From the NCBI GenBank assembly GCA_019689555.1, contig JADGHE010000010.1, forward strand, positions 1-64,000: a stretch of 64,000 nucleotides of DNA, given 5' to 3'. Position 1 is the stretch's first letter. Every line of letters starts with the position of its first letter. The notes beneath the pieces are model-generated. The model searched no databases, was not told where the DNA came from, and was given only the letters and a program-made list of their open reading frames with translations. The position numbers and the translations under genes were made by a program. This document shows, one piece after another, positions 2,556 to 16,880 of this stretch. The stretch is from Variibacter sp. (GTDB taxonomy: Bacteria > Pseudomonadota > Alphaproteobacteria > Rhizobiales > Xanthobacteraceae).

Positions 2556-3671
2556 TCAGGCCCTGGCGGGGCCGACCGTATCGGCCATGCGGGCGCCGCG
2601 CCGCCCTAGCGGCTTTTCGCCTTCGGCGGTGCTGTCCCGCGCCGTCTGATGCTCCATCTCGGCGTTGAGCTCCGCGCCCATGAGCACGACGATCACCGAC
2701 AGCCACATCCACACCATGAGGCCGATGACGGCGCCGAGAGACCCGTAGGTCGCGTTGTAGTCGGCGAAGTGCGACAGATAGAACGAGAAGGCGAGCGAGC
2801 CCACGATCCAGGCGAAGGCGGCCACCACGCTGCCGACGCTCACCCATTGCCATCGCGGCTTCCGCCGGCTCGGCCCGAACCGATAGAGCACGGCAAGGCC
2901 GAGCACGGTCAGCACGAACATCACCGGCCAGCGCAGGACCGATATGATCGTCGGTCCCGCCCCCTGCAGGCCGAGATAGCTGAGCGCCAGCGGCAAGGCG
3001 ACCACCGCCGCAATGGCCGTCAGCAACGCCACGATCGCGCCGAGCGTGAAGGCGAGCGAAATCGCGTTGAGGGCCAAGAATCCGCGCTTTTCCTCCTCGT
3101 CATAGACGACGTTGAGCGCATCGAAGACCGCCTTCATGCCCGCATTGGCGCTCCACAACGCCACCGCAAGGCCTCCGACGAAGGCGAAGGTGAGCGTGCC
3201 GGCCGCCTTGGCCGTGATGCGTTCGATCTGCTCGCGGACGATGTCGAAGCTGCCGGGGGGCAGCAGGGTTCCGAGCGCTTCGAGATGGCGACCGACCGTA
3301 TGCATGTCGGTGAAGAGGCCATAACTCGAAACGAGCGCGGTCACCGCCGGGAACAGCGCGAGGAGCGCAAAGAACACGACGCCCGCGGCGACCGCCATCA
3401 CCCGGTCGCGGTTCGCCTCTTCATAGGTGCGCCACAGAATGTCCTTCCACCCCCGCCGCGGAATTTCGAGCGGAGAACGGGCCCGCCGCCCGCGATGGGG
3501 CTGGGCGGCCTCCGGCGCACGGTTCCTGGACGGCTCGGCGGCGGGACGCGAGCCGCCGAACGGGCCGGCCGCCGGCACGGCTTTTCGCGCACCGACTCCC
3601 ATGATAAGCCCGGCAAGGAGGCCGATTGCGAACAGCGACCATCCCGTGGGGGCTCGAGTGCGCGCATTCAC
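2556..3671 (-). CDS. YihY/BrkB-family inner-membrane protein
   Basis: The core begins around GWKDILWRTYEEANRDRV and has the family's typical segments, including AGVVFFALLALFPAVTALVS, a loop with a hydrophobic stretch around the ALWSANAGMKA motif, and four more membrane helices ending near VLMGAELNAEME. The family has about six transmembrane segments and no established biochemical role; older annotation as ribonuclease BN is wrong. An additional N-terminal hydrophobic segment lies before the core. The start is uncertain: I use GTG 3671, but TTG 3737 and ATG 3602 are in frame and none has a strong ribosome site. It converges on the tRNA-Cys-like gene. Confidence 0.8.
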   Translation of the reverse strand: MNARTRAPTGWSLFAIGLLAGLIMGVGARKAVPAAGPFGGSRPAAEPSRNRAPEAAQPHRGRRARSPLEIPRRGWKDILWRTYEEANRDRVMAVAAGVVFFALLALFPAVTALVSSYGLFTDMHTVGRHLEALGTLLPPGSFDIVREQIERITAKAAGTLTFAFVGGLAVALWSANAGMKAVFDALNVVYDEEEKRGFLALNAISLAFTLGAIVALLTAIAAVVALPLALSYLGLQGAGPTIISVLRWPVMFVLTVLGLAVLYRFGPSRRKPRWQWVSVGSVVAAFAWIVGSLAFSFYLSHFADYNATYGSLGAVIGLMVWMWLSVIVVLMGAELNAEMEHQTARDSTAEGEKPLGRRGARMADTVGPARA

Positions 3672-3922
3672 GGTCAAGGCGAAGGGTCCCGGCTGCACCG
3701 ACCGCTGATAACCCGCCGGCGAAGGCAAAGGTTTCAAGCCGCGCGCCCTTGCGGCGGCGTCCTCGGCGGTCGCGACCTCGCGCGGGCAGCCTTCCCCCGC
3801 GGCCCAAAGTGGGCTAAGCAGCCGGCGCTGCGGCGGCCAGGATCGCCGAAGCGGCCGCCTGGCGAGTGAGGCTGCGTGCTGGACGCCGCCTTTTTTTGTG
3901 CCTGAACCGTTCCGCGGAGCTG

Positions 3923-7372
<3,450 letters not shown>

Positions 7373-7375
7373 AAC

Positions 7376-7400
7376 GCCGACCGCATGGGTGCGGGTCGGC
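7376..7400 (+). terminator. hairpin directly after carB
   Basis: GCCGACC (7376-7382) plus GCA pairs with TGC plus GGTCGGC (ending 7400), with one bulged G and a TGGG loop. It starts four bases after the carB stop. No T-run follows, so it may stabilise the 3' end rather than terminate transcription. The stronger signal lies further on, at 7549. Confidence 0.4.
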
Positions 7401-7548
7401 CCGGCCCCGGGCCGTGCGGGGGGTGAGGCCTCGCGTGGCCGGAGGGAACTGCCGGGACGGTCTGGACTTGACGGATTGGGCTGCCGGAAGCCGGGTTCGC
7501 CTTTGGCGAGGGCTGACGGGGCCCGTTGGCGGCAGCGAGAAATTCGTC

Positions 7549-7595
7549 CGATCGCGGGGGCGAAGAGCGTCTTCGACCCGCGATCGAGAATTTTT
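7549..7595 (+). terminator. strong intrinsic terminator in the greA leader
   Basis: An outer stem CGATCGCGGG (7549-7558) pairs perfectly with CCCGCGATCG (7577-7586). Inside it, CGAAGA pairs with TCTTCG around a GCG loop. The run AGAATTTTT ends at 7595. Only 34 nt separate the T-run from the greA ATG at 7630, too little for a complete promoter and leader. RNA that expresses greA from an upstream promoter must therefore read through it. It may end carB transcripts, attenuate greA, or both. Confidence 0.75.
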
Positions 7596-7629
7596 CTGCC
7601 GCAAGGCTTGAAAGGACTAGAGACAGGCA

Positions 7630-8103
7630 ATGGACAAGATCCCGATGACCGAGGCCGGATATGCTGCGCTTGAGCAGGAGCTCAAGCATCGTCAGCAGGT
7701 CGAACGGCCCCGCATCATCCAGCAGATCACCGAAGCGCGTTCGCACGGCGACCTGTCCGAAAATGCCGAGTATCATGCGGCCAAGGAGGCGCAATCGCAC
7801 AACGAAGGCCGCATCGCCGAGCTTGAGGACAAGCTCGCCCGTGCCGAAGTCATCGACGTGTCGAAGCTCTCGGGTGACGTCATCAAGTTCGGCGCGACGG
7901 TTACCCTGATCGACGAAGACACGGAAGAGAAGAAGGTCTGGCAGATCGTCGGCGAGCCCGAGGCCGATGCCAAGAAAGGCCGGATCTCGATCACCTCGCC
8001 GATGGCGCGCGCCCTCATCGGCAAGAAGAAGGGCGCGCAGGTGGAGGTCGTGACCCCCAACGGGGCCAAGGCCTACGAGGTGGTCAAGGTCGAGTGGCGG
8101 TAA
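7630..8103 (+). CDS. greA: transcription elongation factor GreA
   Basis: GreA rescues backtracked RNA polymerase by stimulating transcript cleavage through the secondary channel. The 157-residue protein has full family length. An N-terminal coiled-coil hairpin carries the tip motif [15 protein letters not shown] (about residues 41-55) with the acidic residues D41 and E44. A C-terminal FKBP-like domain ends in YEVVKVEW. The ATG at 7630 follows a weak AAGGACTAGAG site. An intrinsic terminator lies immediately upstream, and a long terminator follows the gene. Confidence 0.97.
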
Positions 8104-8139: not shown

Positions 8140-8168
8140 CCGCCTGCCCCCGCCGGGGCGGGCGGTTT
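8140..8168 (+). terminator. intrinsic terminator after greA
   Basis: An 11-pair stem (8140-8150 with 8155-8165, one T-G pair) closes a four-base CGCC loop and is followed by TTT. Its right edge touches the stop codon of the convergent gene at 8168, so it may serve both strands. Confidence 0.8.
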
Positions 8169-16837: not shown

Positions 16838-16852
16838 GCGGCCGCGCCAAAA

Positions 16853-16880
16853 AAACCGGGCCCAAACTGGGGCCCGGTTT
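16853..16880 (+). terminator. intrinsic terminator after msrP
   Basis: AAACCGGGCCC (16853-16863) and GGGCCCGGTTT (16870-16880) pair perfectly around AAACTG. The A-run before and T-run after make it usable on both strands. It lies 15 bp after the msrP stop and closes that transcript as a single-gene unit. Confidence 0.85.

Follow-up and report, generated by a model that had tools for sequence, protein, structure and literature searches.

The window, that is, the whole stretch of 64,000 nucleotides analysed here, carries carB and, downstream of it in the same direction, greA (assigned by NCBIfam GreA), with a long hairpin in the region between them (Table 1). A first-pass annotation made from the letters had described a two-part perfect stem here followed by a T-run, and both are present: a 10 bp stem carries an apical stem of 6 bp closed by the loop GCG, and 34 nt separate the T-run from the greA ATG. 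The GC stem is stable, the segment 7530-7605 folding at -42.8 kcal/mol against a mean of -25.6 for shuffled sequence (z -6.0, none of 200 shuffles being as good). Because the stem continues outward of the GC core, pairing 7537-7545 with 7588-7596 and 7530-7534 with 7597-7601, I take the feature to be 7530-7601, with the T-run inside the stem.

Table 1. Features of the carB-greA locus, in coordinates of the window.
Feature	Position	Strand	Evidence
carB (carbamoyl-phosphate synthase large subunit)	3923..7372	+	NCBIfam NF003671, 1728 bits
carB-greA intergenic region, 257 nt, without a promoter-like site above background	7373..7629	+	
Complete extended hairpin (matched by model R1 at 7527-7604; the window is an R1 seed)	7530..7601	+	fold z -6.0; R1 51 bits, E 7.9e-8
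5' outer arm; encloses the U-run together with the 3' outer arm	7530..7545	+	
GC core: stem 7549-7558/7577-7586, apical stem 7561-7566/7570-7575, loop 7567-7569	7549..7586	+	
3' outer arm, U-run included	7588..7601	+	
T-run (U5), 4 nt past the GC stem; pairs with 7538-7542 in the full fold	7591..7595	+	
greA	7630..8103	+	NCBIfam NF001261, 258.8 bits
Terminator 3' of greA (stem 8140-8165, then TTT)	8140..8168	+	d=48.3

The first-pass annotation had also called this a strong intrinsic terminator; the hairpin and T-run stand, and the word "strong" does not. AGAA (7587-7590) lies between the GC stem and the Ts. On a d'Aubenton-Carafa-type terminator score (d; own implementation) the hairpin reaches a moderate 6.7, a value equalled or exceeded at 27 sites in 2x64 kb, itself counted, and far under that of the terminator 3' of greA, which ends at 8165. 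A simple terminator scan of the window did not list it, and since the full stem encloses the T-run, "strong terminator" overstates the case. Elsewhere in the window, at 16849-16880, a stem (16856-16877) with a T-run on each strand resembles a very strong terminator (d 58.9 on the minus strand, 31.1 on the plus strand).

A search of the window against Rfam returned tRNA only, the best sub-threshold match of the hairpin being sX7 at 17.2 bits against a gathering score of 55, and no match at gathering score was found in the 20 greA loci scanned. On these searches a known riboswitch or sRNA was rejected, and the two greA-linked RNA elements described below (models R1 and R2) have no Rfam match in the window and those 20 loci.

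Conservation and placement in related genomes

GreA is present in 142 of 149 genomes of the family. The greA leaders compared were 110 of these 142, the window's included, plus the 80 best loci, which come in part from the same genomes; close relatives were kept in all leader sets. carB lies within 600 nt upstream in 109 of the 110 family leaders, and the remaining one, L160, had no upstream sequence. From 27 leaders picked by eye for a visible hairpin I built a covariance model, R1, which at E<=0.01 gives 37 matches in 37 of the 149 family genomes, one per genome. Thirty-six of them lie upstream of greA on the same strand, within 191 nt, in 14 of the 47 genera sampled; the lone match away from greA is in genome G031 (E 0.0023). 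As the 36 comprise the 27 seeds and nine non-seeds, 27 are expected by construction, and the evidential weight of R1 is the near absence of matches away from greA. In the window's own genome the hairpin (Table 1) is followed by a second-best match of only E 0.8, and with a single good match a repeat element is ruled out. Among 199 genomes sampled from the order, six other family genomes included, R1 matched the window alone.

The first-pass annotation had proposed comparing greA leaders for a conserved hairpin and T-run, and the hairpin is kept at greA in 36 of 149 genomes, rather than across all, with a T-run of at least four in 29 of the 36 matches (27 of the 36 having been chosen by eye). 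The terminator-like hairpin before greA is thus real and is conserved within part of the family. In 112 of the 149 genomes R1 has no match, and the device is therefore dispensable there or replaced. The named Bradyrhizobium leaders have hairpins close to greA without a U-tract, and in L009, L010 and L013 of that genus a site resembling a terminator stands some 130 nt ahead of greA, closer to carB.

Other inverted repeats were seen in this region. The family leaders L124, L129, L136 and L139 have a different hairpin, of the GTTTCGTGC..GCACGAAA type and without a U-run, directly before the greA ribosome-binding site. L003, L120 and L132 have palindromes around GACTCCGG..CCGGAGTC between carB and greA; the exact pattern of this palindrome was absent from 31 other genomes, a set that does not contain the genomes of those three leaders.

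The 36 leaders also show where the hairpin sits (nine weak R1 matches were left out of the position, T-run and outer-arm tests). The median distance from the carB stop to the hairpin is 29 nt and from the hairpin to greA 23 nt, the middle half of the distances spanning 23-33 nt to the carB stop as against 16-44 nt to the greA start, and intergenic length correlates 0.75 with the distance to greA and 0.36 with the distance to carB. The final codons of carB lie in the modelled element in L100, L103 and L126, where greA begins 100-191 nt downstream, and the element also overlaps carB in L107 and L112, where greA is 16-18 nt downstream. In the window 154 nt lie between it and carB and 25 nt between it and greA; in L099 the two distances are 112 and 17 nt. 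Neither gene thus has a clear claim to the hairpin, with carB ahead; an early reading of it as a greA-bound leader was dropped, its position following carB at least as well.

The first-pass annotation judged that too little space remains for a promoter after the hairpin, which is fair: the best promoter score in 7341-7629 was matched by 98% of 300 shuffles, so that a promoter overlapping or following the hairpin finds nothing above background there. Over the 70 nt upstream of the hairpin, a good -10 box (score 5 or better) occurs in none of 33 R1 leaders, the window included (L103 and L108 were left out of this test); since shuffles give 9%, about 3 of the 33 would be expected to have one, and such scoring may miss a promoter in GC-rich DNA. 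I infer from these sequence scores that greA is probably fed mainly by read-through from carB.

Pairing beyond the U-run is general in these leaders, the bases 3' of it pairing back to the 5' side in 33 of the 36 folds. When 3' ends were swapped among 33 leaders, native ends gained -6.57 kcal/mol in nested folds and swapped ends -5.28, with 1 of 5000 permutations as good, and again 1 of 5000 for 14 clustered leaders; L089 and L128 were out of this final test, and L085 was left out of both the swap and the promoter tests. The duplex-energy version of the test was marginal (156/5000, or 91/5000 with 31 distinct 3' ends). Because native 3' ends fold better with their own hairpins than with foreign ones, more than a minimal terminator seems to be selected, and I read this as selection acting on the closed structure around the U-run. 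The core stem has three pairs changed on both sides, a number equalled in 153 of 500 shuffles, and a covariation score equalled in 18 of 500. Core-stem covariation was accordingly dropped as proof of structure; the core is conserved mainly by sequence, with weak compensatory change.

Terminator-like signals at other greA and carB leaders

Among 186 distinct greA leaders (L160 and identical copies excluded, and L001, which is the window, excluded from the terminator-score scan), 72 have a site with d>=10, where shuffles give 7.9, and 51 have one with d>=20, where shuffles give 2.8. The control was 146 annotated S. meliloti genes, a single genome unmatched to the window in G+C or lineage and with an incomplete gene table; 11 of these have d>=10 and three have d>=20, greA being one of the three. 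Restricting the control to the 57 genes whose neighbour is co-directional and at least 80 nt away leaves seven with d>=10 and two with d>=20. As a class, greA leaders are enriched in terminators over background, an excess that may in part be made of carB's own terminators, and terminator-like signals before greA are common in the relatives, in differing forms.

One of these forms is the Rhizobiaceae-type leader (L196:25263-25361, L069, L075 and part of L019-L046), in which, more regularly than expected, a TATA-like box is followed by a hairpin CGGTTCC..GGACCG, a U-tract and greA. It shares with the window a terminator hairpin before greA and differs from it in having a promoter box at a near-fixed distance and another hairpin sequence. 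The box precedes the U-tract by 53-59 nt in all 19 leaders used, and a good -10 box is found in 74% of these 19, which were chosen after the box was seen, as against 33% of shuffles. (Of 22 leaders viewed, L035, a near copy, and L024 and L025, with other hairpins, were omitted; L032 and L046 were also unused.) In S. meliloti the gene upstream of greA is a divergent MFS gene, and because it is divergent the hairpin is not that gene's terminator. Rfam gave no match in the Rhizobiaceae-type leaders scanned. A model of this leader, R2, which has only 4 modelled pairs because its right arm was misaligned, gives six matches in the 199 order genomes, five of them (E<=1.5e-6) just upstream of greA, once per genome; the order sample contains six genomes of family f24, five of which supply these matches, and f24 is probably Rhizobiaceae. 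The replicon that bears L196 (CP090106.1) is labelled plasmid pSymB; its size of 3.7 Mb and its housekeeping genes, carB and greA among them, make it look like the chromosome.

The window's carB has a leader hairpin too. At 3870-3897 (+) a hairpin is followed by exactly T7, ending 25 nt before the carB ATG (3923), and the long ORF upstream (2556-3737) is on the other strand. In 26 of 30 family carB leaders examined, a GC-rich inverted repeat is followed by T7, or by T6 in two cases, with the end of the run 13-65 nt from the ATG, and the exact motif occurs once each in 15 of 41 family genomes, in all 15 upstream of carB and within about 215 nt. Model R3, made for this leader, scores 41-55 bits in six family genomes and has many weak matches elsewhere. 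By its sequence, this looks like a conserved carB leader attenuator.

What the hairpin may do, and its relation to known systems

I favour, tentatively, the reading that the conserved hairpin at the carB-greA junction is a leaky intrinsic terminator that sets read-through from carB into greA. RNA polymerase arriving from carB would pause at the U-run while the GC core forms; a fraction would stop there and the remainder would read into greA, so that the level of read-through would set GreA expression relative to carB. In the read-through RNA the outer arms would then close over the U-run, leaving a single long hairpin ahead of the start of greA. The computed ground for this consists of the structure, its partial conservation in the family, its unique place, outer arms better than swapped ones, and no nearby promoter-like site. 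Termination itself, its extent, and read-through as the main source of greA mRNA are what I infer on that ground.

The steadier distance to the carB stop than to the greA start over the 36 leaders fits two other readings, both of them serious rivals. One is a plain 3' terminator or 3'-end stabiliser of carB, with greA served by an unrecognised promoter; it would explain why the element overlaps the last carB codons in L100, L103 and L126 with greA 100-191 nt further on, and why the Bradyrhizobium sites of L009, L010 and L013 stand about 130 nt before greA. I nevertheless consider it unlikely: the window and L099 have the hairpin far from carB and near greA, there is no promoter-like site near the hairpin, and sequence kept over 14 genera probably exceeds what a mere terminator calls for. 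The other is a processing or insulating hairpin, at which RNase III-type cutting or end protection would separate the carB and greA mRNAs and termination would be minor. Here the stem that runs past the U-run, and the native 3' ends that beat swapped ones in both the 33 and the 14 leaders, come into their own, because pairing 3' of the U-run is not needed by a terminator and so counts against plain termination. The T-run of at least four in 29 of 36 matches, however, is not needed for processing, and terminator scores are enriched in greA leaders, so I hold this reading to be rather unlikely. Highly improbable is a palindrome acting at the DNA level, for a protein or for structure, with no RNA device: a core kept by sequence more than by compensatory change would suit it, but not a strand-specific U-run, outer-arm pairing, or the same orientation to greA in all 36 matches.

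The first-pass annotation had offered two interpretations of its own, an attenuator analogous to E. coli GraL and a hairpin that tunes carB-greA read-through. For its suggestion that such an attenuator might sense backtracking of RNA polymerase, the sequence offers no support. On the attenuator interpretation, greA would have its own start upstream of the hairpin and GreA would feed back on termination, for which there is a precedent in E. coli (PMC6829880) and a like layout at Rhizobiaceae-type loci. The window does have a hairpin and U-tract upstream of greA on its strand, but no greA promoter is recognisable a few tens of nt upstream of them, and neither the window nor the other R1 leaders, 33 in all, have a promoter-like box above background. 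A GraL-like layout thus appears to exist in the order, at the Rhizobiaceae-type loci, and not visibly in the window, for which I judge the analogy quite improbable. Because there is no promoter box, the hairpin sequence is unlike GraL and its position in relatives keeps closer to the carB stop than to the greA start, the read-through interpretation is preferred and would fit better. A broader idea is a long shot: that homeostatic termination before greA arose more than once, the hairpins of E. coli, of Rhizobiaceae and of the window's family being unrelated, and that in the last it is wired to the carB unit, which has a conserved hairpin and T7 at the end of its own leader too, polymerase state or pyrimidine nucleotide supply then setting GreA at two U-tract decisions in a row.

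GreA is a rescue factor for stalled RNA polymerase, and the E. coli protein restrains its own production by way of a terminator in its leader (PMC6829880). Terminators in the greA leaders of other lineages, with differing sequences, would be independent natural systems, one such lineage being without a visible promoter of its own, and would let one ask what is common to them: hairpin, U-tract or distance.

E. coli GraL shares with the window a GC hairpin and a U-tract between the transcription input and greA, although the two hairpin sequences are unlike by eye. The GraL hairpin spans +19 to +48, about 19 nt from the start site, and keeps down the amount of full-length greA mRNA; in vivo, though not in vitro, this leader mediates repression by catalytically active GreA (PMC6829880). 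Transcription of GraL starts at promoters of its own, about 19 nt ahead of the hairpin, and its U7 ends 94 nt before the ATG (K-12 sequence), whereas the window's hairpin has no recognisable promoter, follows carB, and has its U5 within a longer stem, 34 nt before the ATG. The upstream neighbour likewise differs, dacB being divergent in E. coli and carB co-directional in the window.

Predicted premature terminators upstream of greA are also what the window shares with the greA/rnk attenuators of Naville and Gautheret (2010), in whose work this family comes seventh among attenuated families and is said to have been noticed by an earlier study too (PMC2965389). The figures there show greA leaders of Enterobacteria and bacilli that include antiterminators; the stated range is 'Proteobacteria to bacilli and Clostridia', and its text does not name Alphaproteobacteria, some of which its supplementary lists may include. 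As a whole word, greA does not occur in the main text of PMC3738593, PMC2873474, PMC10117765, PMC1273637, PMC7566282 and PMC5756330. The phrase 'greA leader' retrieved no alphaproteobacterial paper by title, in a search that lay outside supplements and most subscription papers, where an earlier report is possible.

Intercistronic terminators and processing hairpins in operons could lower the expression of the downstream gene, and the window's hairpin, lying between two co-directional genes, is of that general build. Unlike ordinary intercistronic hairpins, it keeps its sequence across 14 of the 47 genera sampled and has a single good match in each genome that bears it. The device is of an ordinary kind, at a new site, and its structure is real and conserved.
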